A DNA stretch of 64,000 nt. Source: Bradyrhizobiaceae bacterium PARB1. GTDB lineage: Bacteria > Pseudomonadota > Alphaproteobacteria > Rhizobiales > Xanthobacteraceae. A model generated the notes under the pieces. It searched no databases. It saw only the letters and a program-made list of their open reading frames with translations, and was not told the DNA's origin. The DNA is taken from NCBI GenBank assembly GCA_002256345.1, contig NKIY01000002.1, positions 62,001 through 126,000 of the forward strand, read 5' to 3'. This document shows positions 5,392-56,288 of the stretch, in pieces (position 1 is the stretch's first letter; each line of letters begins with the position of its first letter). The position numbers and the translations under genes were made by a program.

Positions 5392-5512
5392 CCCTCATGG
5401 TGAGGAGCGCCGCCGCCGCTTGGCGCGTGTCTCAAACCATGAATTGGCCGGGCTCCCAGCCTGCCGCCATCCTTCGAGACGCGCGCCGTTGGCGCGCTCC
5501 TCAGGATGAGGG
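5392..5512. repeat. Composite palindromic intergenic repeat, copy 1
   Basis: Between two convergent genes. It begins CCTCATGGTGAGGAGC and ends CTCCTCAGGATGAGG, with an internal TTCGAGACGCGC segment and a GCGCGCC-GTT-GGCGCGC hairpin. An inverted copy of the same composite lies at 32621-32753, also between convergent genes. It resembles REP/BIME-like elements of bradyrhizobia. Confidence 0.75.
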
Positions 5513-5526
5513 CAGAGCGGAAAACA

Positions 5527-24262: not shown

Positions 24263-24402
24263 TTCCCTCTCCCCTTGTGGGAGAGGGTGGCCGCGCGAAG
24301 CGCGGACGGGTGAGGGGTAGCCACAAGCTCTGAGCTTCACGGCTACCCCTCATCCGTCACGGCCTGCGGCCGTGCCACCTTCTCCCACAAGGGGAGAAGG
24401 AA
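24263..24402. repeat. Head-to-head pair of intergenic repeats without cargo
   Basis: Two inverted copies of one element: 24263-24319 (TTCCCTCTCCCCTTGTGGG ... GGGTGAGGGGTA) and 24344-24402 (its complement), separated by a 24-bp nearly palindromic spacer centred on AAGCTC-T-GAGCTT. The whole could fold into a long hairpin between trpC and moaC. Two more copies in the same arrangement flank the DUF559 gene at 54376-54846. Confidence 0.85.
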
Positions 24403-32612: not shown

Positions 32613-32620
32613 TTCTCCGC

Positions 32621-32753
32621 CCTCATCCTGAGGAGCCGCGTAGCGGCGCCTCCTTGCGAATGGCGAAGCCATTCGCTGGGGATGGCCGCACGCTCAGTGA
32701 GCCAGGCCACCTCATGGTTCGAGACGGCGCTGCGCGTCTCCTCACCATGAGGG
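32621..32753. repeat. Composite palindromic intergenic repeat, copy 2
   Basis: Reads CCTCATCCTGAGGAGCC at its left end and CTCCTCACCATGAGGG at its right end, with CTCATGGTTCGAGAC inside. This is the element at 5392-5512 in inverted orientation. It lies between convergent pyrG and the serine hydrolase gene and probably serves as their shared transcript end. Confidence 0.75.
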
Positions 32754-51256: not shown

Positions 51257-51289
51257 GAAGCGCGCAAGCTAGAGCGATCCGGAGTTACT

Positions 51290-52684
51290 ATGGCAATTCA
51301 AGTGCTGATGCCCGCGCTGTCTCCCACGATGGAAAAGGGCAACCTTTCGAAGTGGCTGAAGAAGGAAGGCGACACCATCAAGTCCGGCGATGTCATCGCC
51401 GAGATCGAGACCGACAAGGCGACGATGGAAGTCGAAGCGACCGATGAGGGGACGCTCGGCAAGATCCTGGTGCCGGAAGGCACCGCGGACGTCGCGGTCA
51501 ACACGCCGATCGCAGTGATCGTCGCCGAAGGCGAAGACGCCTCTGCGGCCAGCGCGGCCGCGCCGGCCAAGCAGGAGAAGGCGGAAGCCGCGCCTGCCGA
51601 AGCGAAGTCGGAAGCCAAGGCCGAAGCTCCGAAAGCTGAGGCTGCCCCGGAAGCGCCGAAGACCGCGCTGCTGCCCGATCCGGATATTCCGGAAGGCACC
51701 GAGATGGTCACCATGACCATCCGTGAAGCGCTGCGCGATGCCATGGCCGAGGAAATGCGCCGTGACGCCGACGTGTTCGTGATGGGCGAGGAAGTCGCCG
51801 AATATCAGGGCGCCTACAAGGTTACCCAGGGCCTGCTGCAGGAATTCGGCGCCCGCCGCGTCATCGACACGCCGATCACCGAACACGGTTTTGCCGGTGT
51901 CGGCGTCGGTGCGGCCATGGCCGGCCTGAAGCCGATCGTCGAATTCATGACCTTCAACTTCGCCATGCAGGCGATCGATCAGATCATCAACTCCGCTGCC
52001 AAGACGCTCTACATGTCCGGCGGCCAGATGACCTGTCAGATGGTGTTCCGCGGCCCCAATGGCGCCGCCGCCCGCGTCGCCGCCCAGCACAGCCAGGACT
52101 ACTCGGCCTGGTACTCGCAGATCCCCGGTCTCAAGGTGATCGCGCCGTCGAACGCCGCCGACTACAAGGGCCTGCTCAAGGCTGCGATCCGCGATCCCAA
52201 CCCGGTGATCTTCCTCGAGCATGAAATGCTCTACGGGCAGTCCGGCGAAGTGCCGAAGCTCGACGACTACGTGTTGCCGATCGGCAAGGCGAAGATCGTG
52301 CGCGCCGGCAAGGACGTCACGCTGATCTCGTGGTCGCATGGCATGACCTACACGCTGAAGGCCGCCGAGGAACTCGCCAAGGAAGGCATCGAGGCCGAGG
52401 TCATCGACCTGCGCACGCTGCGTCCGCTCGACAGCGAGACGGTCATCGAGTCCGTGAAGAAGACCTCGCGCGCCGTGACGGTGGAAGAGGGCTGGCAGCA
52501 GAACGGCGTTGGCGCCGAGCTCGCCGCGCGCATCATGGAAGGCGCGTTCGACTATCTCGATGCGCCGGTGACGCGCGTGTCGGGCAAGGATGTGCCGATG
52601 CCCTATGCCGCCAATCTCGAAAAGCTCGCGCTGCCCTCGGTGGCCGAGGTCGTCGCTGCCGCCAAGGCGGTCTGCTATCGCTAA
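51290..52684 (+). CDS. pdhB: Pyruvate dehydrogenase E1 beta subunit with lipoyl domain
   Basis: A 464-residue subunit with an extra N-terminal lipoyl domain (1-80), lipoyl Lys43 in [12 protein letters not shown], followed by an alanine/glutamate/proline/lysine linker (about 85-135) and the transketolase-type E1 beta core (about 145-464: [31 protein letters not shown]). The lipoyl-E1 beta fusion is a known alphaproteobacterial trait. The domain is almost identical in sequence to that of pdhC downstream, suggesting a duplication. Confidence 0.97.
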
Positions 52685-52701: not shown

Positions 52702-53007
52702 ATGGCCGGTCCGAAGGAACAGTCGCTGCCGCCGGATGTCGAGGGACGCGAGGACGCAACCGAAGTGTTGCGTGCTTTCGTCGTCGATGGCGGGTTGTCG
52801 ATCGCGTTCATGCGCGCCTTCGAGGACCCGGAAATGTGGGGCATGCTGCTGGTCGATATCGCGCGCCACGCCGCGCGCGCCTATGGGCGCGAGAGCGAAT
52901 TCACCGAGGACGAGGCGCTGCGCCGCATCGTCGATATGTTCGAATCCGAGATTGCTCGTCCGACCGACATGGGCGCCACCACGCCGCGGTCGCAACAAGG
53001 TCACTGA
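52702..53007 (+). CDS. DUF5076 domain protein in the pdh operon
   Basis: A 101-residue soluble protein. Start ATG 52702 (GGGGAAGG before it), stop 2 bp before pdhC. Sequence features: [42 protein letters not shown] and an acidic C-terminal helix ([16 protein letters not shown]). It fits the DUF5076 family, small proteins of unknown function found beside pdh genes in alphaproteobacteria. The conserved position suggests a role with the pyruvate dehydrogenase complex, but no activity is known. Confidence 0.8.
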
Positions 53008-53009
53008 CA

Positions 53010-54365
53010 ATGCCGATTAACATTCTGATGCCTGCGCTGTCGCCCACGATGGAGAAGGGCAACCTTGCCAAGTGGCTCAAGAAAGAGGGCGACAAGGTCA
53101 AGTCCGGCGACGTGATCGCGGAGATCGAGACCGACAAGGCGACGATGGAAGTCGAAGCCGTCGATGAAGGCACGATCGCGAAGATTTTGGTCGCAGAAGG
53201 CACCGCCGACGTACCGGTGAACGACGTCATCGCGATCCTCGCCGCCGACGGCGAGGACGTGAAGGCGGCCGCGAGCGGCGGCGGTGCGCCGAAGGCCGAG
53301 GCGAAGCCCGAGCCAAAGGCGGAAGCCAAATCAGAAGCCAAGCCCGAGCCGAAGGCTGAAGCCAAGCAGGAGGCACCGAAGCCGGCCGCTGCGCCAGCGC
53401 CCGCTCCGGCGGCTGCAGCCAGCAATGGCGCCCGCGTGTTCTCGTCGCCGCTGGCCCGTCGTCTTGCCAAGGAAGCCGGAATCGATCTCGGCCGGATCAA
53501 CGGCACCGGCCCGCGCGGCCGCGTGGTGGCAGCGGATGTCGACAAGGCCAAGTCCGGTGGCGCGTTGAAGGCGCCCGCGGCCGGTGCTGCCGCGGCTTCT
53601 GCGGGCGCTGTCGGTGCACCCGCGATGTCCGATCAGGCGATCCTCGGCCTGTACGAGCAGGGCTCCTACGAGACCGTGCCGCATGACTCCATGCGCCGCA
53701 CGATCGCGCAGCGTCTCACCGCTGCGACCAATTCGATGCCGACCTTCTATCTCACCGTCGATTGCGATCTCGGCAAGCTCTCCGCCGCCCGCGAGGAGAT
53801 CAACGCCGCCGCCGGCAAGAATGCCGAAGGCAAGCCGAACTACAAGCTGTCGGTCAACGACTTCGTCATCAAGGCGATGGCGATCGCGCTGCAGAAGATC
53901 CCGGAAGCCAATGTGTCGTGGACGGAAGCTGCGATGCTGCGCCACAAGCATTCCGACATCGGCGTCGCCGTTGCGCTGCCATTCGGCCTGATCACGCCGA
54001 TCATCCGCAGTGCCGAGATCAAGACGATTTCGCAGATCTCCAACGAGATGAAGGAACTCGCCGCGCGCGCCAAGGCGAAGAAGCTGAAGCCGCATGAATA
54101 TCAGGGCGGCGCGTCATCGGTCTCGAACCTCGGCATGTTCGGCATCAAGGATTTTACCGCGGTGATCAATCCGCCGCAGTCCTCGATCCTCGCGGTCGGC
54201 ACCGGCGAGGAGCGGGCGGTTGTGCGCAATGGCCAGATCGTCGCCGCGACCATGATGAGCGTGACTCTCTCCTGCGACCACCGCGCCATCGACGGCGCGC
54301 TCGGTGCGGAGCTGATCACGGCGTTCAAGAAGCTGATCGAAAATCCCGTGATGATGGTGGTTTAA
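53010..54365 (+). CDS. pdhC: Dihydrolipoyllysine acetyltransferase (E2 of PDH)
   Basis: Core of the pyruvate dehydrogenase complex, moving the acetyl group to CoA. The 451-residue product has a lipoyl domain (1-80, Lys43), a Lys/Glu/Ala/Pro linker, a peripheral-subunit-binding domain (about 143-180, [19 protein letters not shown]), a second linker, and the catalytic domain (about 220-451) with the active-site pair His424 and Asp428 in [11 protein letters not shown] 53010 lies 2 bp after the DUF5076 stop. The gene ends just before the repeat that flanks the DUF559 gene. Confidence 0.96.
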
Positions 54366-54375
54366 GGATTCTTGT

Positions 54376-54437
54376 TTCCCTCTCCCCTTGTGGGAGAGGG
54401 TGGATCGGACGCGAAGCGGCCGAGACGGGTGAGGGGT
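54376..54437. repeat. Intergenic repeat, left copy flanking the DUF559 gene
   Basis: TTCCCTCTCCCCTTGTGGG at its outer end and GGTGAGGGGT at its inner end, the same element as at 24263-24402. Its inner end supplies the GTGAGGGG that acts as the ribosome site of the DUF559 ATG at 54438. Confidence 0.85.
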
Positions 54438-54866
54438 ATGCACCAGCCTGTGTCCTATCAGAAGCGCGCCTTCGCAAAATCGCTGCGCGTGAATGCGACC
54501 GAGACTGAAAAGACACTGTGGCGCCTGCTGCGATCTCGCCGTCTGACTAATTTAAAGTTTCGCCGGCAAGTGCCGATCGGTCCGTGGATCGTCGATTTCG
54601 TGTCGTTCGAATGTCGCCTGATCGTCGAAGCCGATGGCAGTCAGCATGTGGAAAGCGAGCGCGATGAGAAACGTGACCGTGATCTAACCGAACGAGGCTT
54701 TCGCGTTCTACGGTTTTGGAACAACGATATTCTGAAACGCTCGGATCAGGTGCTCGAAGCCATCTATGACGCAGCCCAGAATTACCCCTCACCCGTCTGC
54801 GCGCCAACGGGCGCGCATCCACCCTCTCCCACAAGGGGAGAGGGAAGAAAAGAAGCAAGCGAGTAA
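54438..54866 (+). CDS. DUF559 (Vsr/MutH-like nuclease fold) protein
   Basis: A 142-residue protein of the DUF559 family, related to very-short-patch-repair-type endonucleases. Core motifs: RVNATETEKTLWRLLRSR, FRRQVPIGPWIVDFVSFE with the acidic Asp, LIVEADGSQH (Glu-x-Asp) and FRVLRFWNNDIL. ATG 54438 is set directly after the repeat end. The last 28 residues ([14 protein letters not shown] and around) are encoded by the right-hand repeat copy, so they are probably not functional. It interrupts the pdh operon, ending 3 bp before lpd. The role (DNA repair, defence or mobility) is unknown. Confidence 0.85.
   Translation: MHQPVSYQKRAFAKSLRVNATETEKTLWRLLRSRRLTNLKFRRQVPIGPWIVDFVSFECRLIVEADGSQHVESERDEKRDRDLTERGFRVLRFWNNDILKRSDQVLEAIYDAAQNYPSPVCAPTGAHPPSPTRGEGRKEASE
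54783..54846. repeat. Intergenic repeat, right copy flanking the DUF559 gene
   Basis: Inverted copy of 54376-54437: starts TACCCCTCACCCG and ends CTCCCACAAGGGGAGAGGGAA. It is read through as the C-terminal codons of the DUF559 ORF. Confidence 0.85.
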
Positions 54867-54869
54867 CCC

Positions 54870-56288
54870 ATGTCCGACAATTCCTTCGACGTCGTCGTCA
54901 TCGGCTCCGGTCCCGGCGGCTATGTGACGGCCATTCGTGCCGCGCAGCTCGGCTTCAAGACGGCCATCGTCGAGAAGGCCTATTTCGGCGGCATCTGCAA
55001 CAATTGGGGCTGTATCCCGACCAAGGCGCTGCTGCGCTCGGCGGAAATGTATCACGCCTTCCAGCATGCCAAGGATTACGGCCTGTCCGCCGACAACGTC
55101 TCCTTCGACATCAAGGCCGTCATCGCGCGATCGCGCGGCGTCGTGAAGCGCCTCAATGGCGGCGTCGAATTCCTGATGAAGAAGAACAAGATCACCGTGA
55201 TCTGGGGCGAGGCCACGCTGGACGCGCCCGGCAAGTTCTCGGTGAAGAAGTCTCAGGCCGAGGCGCCGAAGGGCGCGCTGGGCGAGGGCAGCTACACCGC
55301 AAAGCACATCATCGTCGCCACCGGTGCGCGCCCGCGCGTGCTGCCGGGTCTCGAGCCCGACAAGAAGCTTGTCTGGACCTATTTCGAGGCGATGAACCCG
55401 GACAAGATGCCGAAGTCGCTGCTGGTGGTCGGCTCCGGCGCCATCGGCATCGAATTCGCTTCGTTCTATCGTTCCTTCGGCGCCGAAGTGACGGTGGTCG
55501 AAGTGCTGCCGCAGATCCTGCCGGTGGAGGACGCCGAGATCGCCGCCTTCGCCCGCAAACAATTCGAGAAGCAGGGCATCAAGGTCCTTGCTAACACCAA
55601 GGTCACAAAACTCGACAAGAAGGCCGACAGCGTCGTCGCGACCATCGATGACGGCAAGAAGCCGGTGACGCAGGAATTCGACCGCGTCATTTCCGCGGTC
55701 GGCGTGGTCGGCAATATCGAAGGCTTCGGCCTCGAGAAGCTCGGCGTGAAGACCGAGCGTGGCTGCATCGTCATCGACAAACATGGCAAGACCAATGTCC
55801 CTGGCATCTATGCCATCGGCGACGTCGCCGGTCCCCCGATGCTGGCCCACAAGGCCGAGCATGAGGGCGTGATCTGCGTCGAGGCCATCAAGGGCATGAA
55901 CCCCCATGGCATGGACAAGACGCTGATCCCGGGCTGCACCTATTGCCACCCGCAGATCGCCTCGGTCGGCCTCACCGAAGCCAAGGCCAAGGAAGCCGGC
56001 AAGGACATCCGCGTCGGTCGCTTCCCCTTCGTGGCCAATGGCAAGGCCATTGCCCAGGGCGAGGATCAGGGCATGGTGAAGGTGATCTTCGACAAGAAGA
56101 CCGGTCAGCTGCTTGGCGCTCACATGGTCGGCGCCGAGGTCGTCGAGATGATCCAGGGATTCGTGGTCGCCATGAACCTCGAGACGACGGAAGAAGAGCT
56201 GTTCCACACCATCTTCCCGCATCCGACCATCTCGGAGACGATGAAGGAAGCGGTGCTGGACGCCTATGGACGCGTTCTGAACACCTGA
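54870..56288 (+). CDS. lpd: Dihydrolipoyl dehydrogenase (E3 of PDH)
   Basis: Reoxidises dihydrolipoamide with FAD and NAD+. The 472-residue product has the FAD-binding GSGPGGYV (12-19), the redox disulfide Cys43/Cys48 in GICNNWGCIP, the NAD-binding VVGSGAIGIEFASFY, and the C-terminal FPHPTISE that holds the His-Glu acid-base pair. The CNNWGC form of the redox motif, in place of CLNVGC, is typical of PDH-linked alphaproteobacterial E3. It closes the pdh operon after the DUF559 insertion. Confidence 0.96.
   Translation: MSDNSFDVVVIGSGPGGYVTAIRAAQLGFKTAIVEKAYFGGICNNWGCIPTKALLRSAEMYHAFQHAKDYGLSADNVSFDIKAVIARSRGVVKRLNGGVEFLMKKNKITVIWGEATLDAPGKFSVKKSQAEAPKGALGEGSYTAKHIIVATGARPRVLPGLEPDKKLVWTYFEAMNPDKMPKSLLVVGSGAIGIEFASFYRSFGAEVTVVEVLPQILPVEDAEIAAFARKQFEKQGIKVLANTKVTKLDKKADSVVATIDDGKKPVTQEFDRVISAVGVVGNIEGFGLEKLGVKTERGCIVIDKHGKTNVPGIYAIGDVAGPPMLAHKAEHEGVICVEAIKGMNPHGMDKTLIPGCTYCHPQIASVGLTEAKAKEAGKDIRVGRFPFVANGKAIAQGEDQGMVKVIFDKKTGQLLGAHMVGAEVVEMIQGFVVAMNLETTEEELFHTIFPHPTISETMKEAVLDAYGRVLNT

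Follow-up and report, generated by a model that had tools for sequence, protein, structure and literature searches.

A DUF559 nuclease gene enclosed by inverted triplex-motif repeats at the pdhC-lpd junction of Bradyrhizobiaceae bacterium PARB1, a candidate partner of its repeat family

Introduction

Short palindromic repeats lying between genes as inverted pairs are tied to a dedicated gene in the REPIN/RAYT system, in which the gene of a REP-associated tyrosine transposase (RAYT, of the HUH/Y1 type) is flanked by the same GTAG-tagged repetitive extragenic palindromes (REPs) that are dispersed as gene-less pairs through its genome, is seldom duplicated there, and belongs to a protein clade that the repeat type tracks; these features are in part described in PMC3733652. 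The BoxC/PIT/triplex-motif (TM) repeats, according to sections of Holder et al. 2015 (PMC4666352), are widespread, combine a pyrimidine arm, a purine arm and a third strand, occur in Escherichia coli as inverted pairs of two subtypes, form single-strand triplexes in vitro, and are tied to genome instability in that species, and activities providing mobility are stated there never to have been found near E. coli TM sites. Here, we describe a locus comparable to both, located in a 64,000-nucleotide stretch of Bradyrhizobiaceae bacterium PARB1 (assembly GCA_002256345.1, contig NKIY01000002.1, positions 62,001 to 126,000; hereafter the window), in which an inverted pair of TM-type repeats exactly encloses a DUF559 nuclease gene in the spacer between pdhC and lpd. 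The association of DUF559 genes with such repeats is firm, and sequence comparison makes it probable (roughly 0.7) that the DUF559 nuclease is the dedicated partner or mover of its triplex-repeat family.

The locus shares with REPIN/RAYT the inverted intergenic pairs, the coding gene flanked by the same repeats, the rarity of gene duplication, the match between repeat type and protein clade, and the dispersed gene-less pairs (11 in the window's genome); it differs in encoding a Vsr-type PD-(D/E)XK nuclease rather than an HUH/Y1 transposase, and in using a triplex motif with a third strand rather than a GTAG-tagged REP. With the BoxC/PIT/TM repeats it has the layout and often the letters in common, whereas no mobility gene is reported in those sections of PMC4666352 and here the repeats bracket a nuclease; the present analysis adds other arm sequences with matched third strands. 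The protein family, still labelled as of unknown function in Pfam, also includes E. coli YcjD and Caulobacter VsrA. In cells that lack a cytosine methylase, the latter causes a DNA-damage response, and it is proposed to be a very-short-patch repair enzyme tied to a solitary methylase; "palindrom" has no occurrence in that text (PMC12907096). Repeat, protein family and the principle of REP/RAYT systems were each known already; their union appears to be new, no report of it having been found in the open-access literature searched, in which papers naming DUF559 were mostly not covered in full text.

Results

An Inverted Triplex-Motif Pair Exactly Encloses the Gene

Direct reading of the pdhC-lpd spacer revealed the DUF559 gene exactly enclosed by an inverted pair of elements of about 61 bp each, and the span 54376..54846 (471 bp) is probably a single element consisting of this repeat pair and the enclosed nuclease gene. 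The left element (54376..54437, forward strand), supported by direct reading, a palindrome match and single-strand folding, comprises a palindrome at 54378-54400 (the pyrimidine arm CCCTCTCCC, a 5-nt loop and the purine arm GGGAGAGGG), a second hairpin at about 54405-54423, and the third strand GGGTGAGGGG at 54427-54436, one base after which the ATG follows at 54438. The right element (54783..54846, reverse strand) presents the same parts in inverted order, namely the third strand CCCCTCACCC at 54785-54794, a hairpin at about 54798-54817 and the palindrome at 54822-54844. The outermost 30 nt on the two sides form a perfect inverted repeat, 411 nt apart. The palindrome arms of both elements are perfect, the second hairpin differs in sequence between left and right, and both elements exhibit the pyrimidine arm, the purine arm and a triad-compatible third purine strand. 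By the rule adopted here, in which G is placed on G and either A or T on A, this strand is compatible with an antiparallel triplex of the purine motif. The left element, the right element and a 140-nt gene-less pair of the same family elsewhere in the window all folded better than 200 of 200 shuffles (z -3.86, -6.66 and -11.78, respectively). Neither repeat shows a GTAG tag on direct reading, and an Rfam scan of the window returned nothing at the gathering score. Of the features of an insertion sequence or classical miniature inverted-repeat element, a transposase is absent from the unit, which encodes DUF559, and the flanks of the relatives compared have diverged too far for target-site duplications to show.

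The enclosed open reading frame (ORF; 54438..54866, forward strand, 142 aa) matched Pfam PF04480 with an E value of 6.9e-39 (132.5 bits against a curated cut-off of 20.6) and was assigned to the Vsr-like PD-(D/E)XK nucleases; the NCBIfam DUF559 model stayed below its cut-off and the Vsr match was weak. GTGAGGGG occupies the position expected of a ribosome site, and the start codon is a prediction, since upstream of the ATG the frame stays open as far as a TTG at 54372. The DUF559 domain extends to residue 112 and is followed by a C-terminal tail of 30 residues (54774..54863, forward strand), mostly encoded by the right repeat. The sequence-only reading that preceded this analysis had placed the gene precisely within an inverted pair inside the pdh operon, with a frame running from the inner edge of the left repeat through the right copy, which would supply the tail of the protein; the repeat reading, the ORFs and the Pfam match bear out each of these points. 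The residues E55, D57 and H61 were invariant over 25 DUF559 sequences and D44 was conserved at 90% or more, a set that fits an active PD-(D/E)XK/Vsr-type nuclease with these as the predicted catalytic positions, and E-x-D-G-x-x-H was retained in 188 of 204 matched frames. The class, family and phylum names used below for the sampled genomes are putative assignments of this analysis, the class being taken from named relatives (a Rhodopseudomonas domain is 78% identical). The closest solved chains were the DUF559 structure 3hrl (E 3.1e-35) and, weakly, the mobile-intron protein 3r3p (E 0.0024).

The Repeat Family and Its Gene-Less Pairs

The window repeat has the layout of the BoxC/PIT/TM intrastrand-triplex motif of E. 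coli; the MG1655 copy table in PMC4666352 lists the same letters, for example CCCTCTCCC...GGGAGAGGGTTAGGGTGAGGG. The terms "endonuclease", "nuclease", "Vsr", "ycjD" and "DUF559" have no occurrence in the main text of that article. A decayed element crosses the stop codon of ycjD (b1289), the DUF559 gene of MG1655, and an intact one follows about 165 bp downstream. As a separate observation on the K-12 region (positions 1990-2900 of locus L287), a partial repeat of the ycjD 3' end precedes the intact TM copy, as if the element had been duplicated and then decayed. A sapF-ycjD-TM-fabI query found one place covering at least 80% of it in 3,333 of 5,426 complete E. coli genomes, so that the locus is variable in the species; in strain SX4, outside those 3,333, other genes adjoin fabI, and nothing was concluded from this survey for the main question.

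The window's genome contains 37 palindromes at up to two mismatches, against none for a reversed control pattern, and among them a manual count gave 11 gene-less pairs besides the loaded one, with 113-118 bp from start to start and most of them mixing CCCTCTCCC and CCTTCTCCC. One such inverted pair lies in the window at 24263..24402 (no strand assigned), with palindromes at 24265-24287 and 24378-24400 and third strands at 24308-24317 and 24346-24355. Its inner third strands are separated by 28 bp. With a variant subtype (CCTTCTCCC / CCCCTCATCC) as its right arm, the pair is a heterodimer and thus distinct from the loaded one. The sequence-only reading had taken it for the same pair with a 24-bp spacer, and the two loci for empty and loaded forms of one element. 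What stands is a gene-less inverted pair of the same family, one of several in the genome; the spacer length and the identity of the right arm did not hold, and the two forms are related subtypes rather than exact empty and filled copies. Apart from this family, a further inverted repeat with a CTCATCCTGAGGAGC core occurs at 5483-5517 and 32615-32649 (35 nt, 80% complementary, 27 kb apart), which is perhaps another dispersed palindrome family.

Nesting Recurs Around DUF559 Genes of Several Phyla

The flanks of other DUF559 genes were analyzed by aligning the two 400-bp flanks of each gene as inverted sequences, a score of at least 40 counting as a pair. Out of 201 loci entered, scores were obtained for the 193 that had a match and no less than 250 bp of flank on either side, and the main set comprises 166 loci whose frames are shorter than 300 codons from stop to stop; another 26, whose frames reach 300 codons, stay outside it, even if the protein may be short, and 14 of these also score at least 40. 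Locus L230 (an N run) was removed from the flank counts, L037 and L054 were kept despite N in a flank, and the identical L123 and L204 were both counted. A pair was found at 113 of the 166 short-frame loci, against 3 of 734 control positions taken 800-1000 bp away in the same loci. By sample, this corresponds to 29/40 in the genus (18 genomes), 33/58 in the class (drawn from 70 of the matches listed for the class, chiefly the stronger ones) and 51/68 in named genomes (52/69 before removal of the N run). Left and right flanks paired across different loci reached the threshold in 109 of 1500 combinations, median scores ranged from 48 to 56 for inverted and from 24.5 to 29 for direct alignments, and a later sample gave inverted pairs at 13 of 28 loci against 1 of 116 control positions (some of these from the E. 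coli locus).

Because the arm is palindromic and matches either way, orientation was judged from the third strand. Both third strands point toward the gene at 65 of the 166 loci, and both point away from it at 8 (by side, 196 inward against 55 outward). The long DUF559 paralogue of the genus (404-449 codons) had no pair at any of its 8 loci (scores 17-26). Among the named genomes, loci scoring at least 40 spread through alpha-, beta- and gammaproteobacteria and Desulfobacterales, plus single bins called planctomycete, Dehalococcoidia, Melainabacteria and FCPU426, and flanked genes carry different repeat families in several phyla. The flank comparison proposed in the sequence-only reading found repeats on both sides widely, mostly with the third strands inward. 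At some loci, L132 and L244 included, both the direct and the inverted score are high, and several TM copies are probably clustered around one gene.

These counts bear on an annotation effect, in which short intergenic ORFs would often be TM-flanked simply since TM repeats gather after genes, the tail running through the repeat by chance. Palindromes of Enterobacter sp. 638 are indeed described, in the part of PMC2869309 considered, as often lying at the 3' end of genes, and yet the shifted controls (3/734), the median inverted scores standing well above the direct ones in all three samples, and the Y1_Tnp loci, flanked at only 1 of the 15 with full flanks (20 loci in the set), all speak against it, and it leaves both the genome co-occurrence and the matched arm types described below without explanation; we regard it as scarcely credible. 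The same 1/15 makes the Y1_Tnp loci unusable as a positive control.

Repeat Type Follows DUF559 Clade and Third Strand Follows Arm

In a tree of 38 DUF559 domains from the genus (L and G numbers denote our loci and genomes), the clade of the window (L001, L026, L042 and L043; support 100/94) carries GGGAGAGGG with the third strand GGGTGAGGG, and the loci beside it (L019-L023, branching unresolved) carry GGGAGAGGG with the third strand GGGAGAGGG. The 99/96 clade has GGGGAGAGG/GGTGAGGGG, the 100/98 clade GGGGAAGGG/GGGATGGGG, and the 98/96 clade GGGGAGGG/GGGTGGGG, a type that recurs in a separate two-locus clade (L048, L056); at some loci of the tree the strict search for arms found none. Genomes with two to four DUF559 genes mostly have a distinct arm or third strand at each. 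Over 124 loci, protein and arm similarity were correlated with a rank coefficient of 0.19, a value reached in none of 500 permutations (locus pairs sharing an alignment longer than 700 bp were left out), and arms were identical in 89% of the 47 pairs above 70% protein identity. All four genomes in which the matching DUF559 clade was sampled have a second repeat family of the genus (CCCTTCCCC...GGGGAAGGG), as do 2 of the 14 others; this is weak support, as many copies of that family flank the gene itself.

By flank comparison, the 100/98 clade occupies a single site and the window's clade two, whereas three sites were found for the 99/96 clade and several for the 98/96 clade. Part of the match between arm and clade therefore reflects common descent at a site; as the sole cause, same-site orthology was set aside, being partly true, because clades keep their arm across several sites. 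The relation between arm and third strand was assessed by a hairpin search limited to all-pyrimidine arms, which 156 of the 193 loci yielded. A perfect triad-compatible third strand accompanied 166 of 247 arms (67%, 156 loci), against 15% when the third strand was taken from another arm type, indicating that arm and third strand change together; with one mismatch allowed, the contrast falls to 79% against 54%.

Loaded, Gene-Less and Repeat-Free Sites

The element lies between pdhC, encoding the pyruvate dehydrogenase E2 component (52836..54365, forward strand), and lpd, encoding dihydrolipoamide dehydrogenase (54870..56288, forward strand), both outside it. These genes were taken from the ORF list and named from their translations, E2 without a profile search; the listed pdhC ORF starts upstream of its likely start, and lpd starts 3 bp past the DUF559 stop. 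Upstream, a 264-nt direct repeat (51287-51550 and 53007-53270, 79% identical) covers the starts of the E1-beta- and E2-like ORFs, probably lipoyl domains. All 61 genomes searched gave an Lpd-like match, which for some was only a paralogue or fragment. The pdhC-lpd order is kept in congeners, as the sequence-only reading had held for the operon around the element.

Comparison of this junction across the genus (18 genomes searched, 15 with a resolved junction, that of the window included) revealed a variable site. The gene is present in three (G000, G009, G006), a gene-less TM pair occupies one (G001, with Lpd 99% identical and the same right flank), a half element two (G016, G013) and a CGTC-type pair two (G002, G012), and seven have no repeat. 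The alignment of the three loaded copies (84-88%) extends into their flanks; they therefore probably go back to one insertion, the patchiness then reflecting losses or replacements; DUF559 is the sole gene inside all three. The junction thus varies and the repeats recur at many other DUF559 genes, so that the combination which would have spoken against mobility, a conserved gene here in all relatives and no such repeats at other DUF559 genes, was not found.

The two CGTC-type junctions (L069, L081) hold an unrelated inverted pair starting with CGTCATTGCGAG and having the look of CGTC-tagged REPs, which indicates that the spacer is a landing place for several repeat classes. Sections of PMC3733652 describe such REPs as alphaproteobacterial paired palindromes said to lack a dedicated transposase. 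They resemble the window repeat in being paired, and their identity with it was rejected, their letters and stem layout being unlike; no short-frame DUF559 locus among the 167 scored has the exact word CGTCATTGCGAG closer than 400 bp, and only two long-paralogue loci do (L034, L063).

Two further sites show similar variation. At the L045 site, read in 11 genomes, G012 is loaded, G001 and G014 hold gene-less pairs, six have a short repeat-free spacer and two other sequence; at the window's gene-less site, two of 16 congeners align through the pair, two hold a pair of another TM family, ten have no repeat and two are unclear. The clearest boundary case is L045 itself, which is 82% and 81% identical to L031 and L052 over 461 and 458 bp, the identity ending at most 2 bp from the outer repeat ends, and is located at a different site from both.

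This patchiness also bears on a host-maintenance role, in which a Vsr-like DUF559 protein would remove or repair the triplex or hairpin trouble caused by TM repeats, repeat-rich hosts would keep the gene, and its nesting would be incidental. The DNA-damage link and proposed repair role of VsrA (PMC12907096) and the genome instability associated with E. coli TM motifs (PMC4666352), both taken from parts of these sources, agree with such a role; a repair gene, however, need not be nested precisely, follow a clade-specific repeat type or be patchy at a fixed site, and we consider this explanation improbable.

Genomes with the Gene Are Enriched in the Palindrome

Genome-level co-occurrence was scored with the single arm sequence CCCTCTCCC-N2-8-GGGAGAGGG, DUF559 being taken as present at E values up to 1e-20; genome counts as well as families and sizes were transcribed by hand, and the p values of the two genome sets ignore phylogeny. 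In 241 genomes of the window's class, at least three palindromes occurred in 33 of 57 DUF559 genomes against 7 of 184 others (p 1e-18), and in 211 genomes of other classes of the phylum in 26 of 34 against 10 of 177 (p 2e-18), the copies in the latter set totaling 2437 with DUF559 and 304 without. When means were compared within families holding both states, 24 were up, 3 down and 5 tied (sign test p 5e-5). Two individual genomes deserve mention: G519 has 142 palindromes and only a weak DUF559 hit (E 1.3e-5), its congeners G502 and G610, with 208 and 100 copies, have the gene, and a recent loss is possible; G253 has six palindromes and a DUF559 match split into two neighboring pieces, so that its partner gene may be in decay.

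In the principal competing explanation, the gene targets the repeats without moving them: TM repeats would spread otherwise, and DUF559 would be a small selfish homing-type gene inserting into TM pairs it recognizes. Insertion sequences that insert into REPs exist (ISPpu9). The gene interrupts a pair that is intact elsewhere, it has a weak sequence link to the mobile-intron protein 3r3p, and duplicates within a genome are rare (over 70% protein identity in 3 of 59 within-genome pairs of the sampled loci). This account predicts, however, that repeats should be common without the gene, yet the 7/184 and 10/177 above are the only genomes with three or more palindromes and no strong DUF559 hit, and arm types tracking clade would need a separate reason; we judge it unlikely, if the most serious of the competitors. 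The EDxHD family comprises Vsr-like homing endonucleases, and these likewise represent a related nuclease used in gene mobility; the window gene differs in lying between repeats in intergenic DNA, no intron having been seen there and no intron search made.

A transposase acting in trans could alternatively move the repeats while the nuclease rides along as cargo, for example as an anti-phage gene, in keeping with the fact that a PD-(D/E)XK nuclease is not expected to carry out strand transfer. Against this stand the sole DUF559 gene inside the three loaded pdh junctions, a weak and only partial PADLOC match (DpdF, E 0.0083), and a tblastn match in 1 of 50,697 phage records. Nor was Y1_Tnp (PF01797, RAYT-type), the sole transposase family compared, associated with the palindromes, three or more of which occurred in 7 of 51 genomes with it and 33 of 190 without in the same 241 (p 0.67). 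We give the cargo explanation very little weight. An anti-phage cargo was rejected on the PADLOC result and on tblastn matches to the window protein in 1/50,697 phage and 40/72,556 plasmid records, and a RAYT/Y1 transposase as the mover was rejected because the window's genome has no PF01797 match and the 241 genomes show no link.

Discussion

Taken together, the recurrence of the arrangement and the variation among sites support the small mobile unit suggested by the sequence-only reading, which had left the nuclease as either cargo or mover; the co-occurrence favors the mover, and movement itself was not observed, the support for mobility being a comparison between genomes.

Several observations weigh against the nuclease as dedicated partner of its repeats. 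Among the 166 loci, 53 have no scored pair, and L291, L294, L295 and L301 have none in genomes that carry 15-208 palindromes; ycjD of E. coli has only the decayed repeat at its stop and one intact repeat farther on. The direct score equals or exceeds the inverted one at 29 of 113 paired loci and at 6 of 13 in the later sample, because a palindromic arm aligns in both orientations and repeats are clustered at some loci. Most copies within clades sit at one orthologous site, so that jumps are rare and flank counts are not independent. Seventeen genomes have at least three palindromes and no strong DUF559 hit, one of them with 142 copies, 21 DUF559 genomes have none of the tested arm type, and one arm type is common to two DUF559 clades. 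The gene-less pair of G001 at the pdh site is a sister subtype with an A-type third strand. In only 13 of 189 filtered unit pairs are the boundaries on both sides, at both loci, no more than 5 bp from the repeat ends, and an alignment between arms of like type need not mean that they moved together. Strand transfer is beyond a hydrolytic nuclease acting alone, and transposition, cutting and binding by DUF559 are here inferred from sequence.

If the nuclease is nonetheless the mover, it would recognize the hairpin or triplex of its own repeat, or the long cruciform of a gene-less pair, probably on single-stranded DNA at replication forks, and would nick or cut there, after which host replication or repair might copy the repeat pair into other intergenic sites. 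The abundant gene-less pairs would then be non-autonomous and the rare loaded pairs the coding form, and the system would work like REPIN/RAYT with a Vsr-fold nuclease in place of the Y1 (HUH) transposase. Movement might be RAYT-like, through single-strand excision, or homing-like; in the latter variant, which we put on an equal footing, the gene would interrupt its own recognition pair and a cut gene-less pair would be converted by the loaded copy.

At even odds, in our estimate, the locus represents a new class of mobile element, in which a Vsr-type nuclease would recognize the intrastrand triplex, or a two-hairpin cruciform, of its own terminal repeats and would thereby spread both the loaded unit and the gene-less pairs; should triplex-directed cutting be shown, there is a fair chance of a new kind of system. 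The link between repeat and protein suggests what might move a major class of repeats and what the DUF559 nucleases might act on. It would be a second, independent solution to the problem that RAYTs solve for REPs, and the covariation of arm and third strand may be a case of DNA triplex geometry under selection. If true, the new-class reading would account for the origin of the BoxC/PIT/TM repeats, including those of E. coli, where ycjD adjoins one, and the presence of ycjD in E. coli K-12 makes the question approachable in a standard strain.
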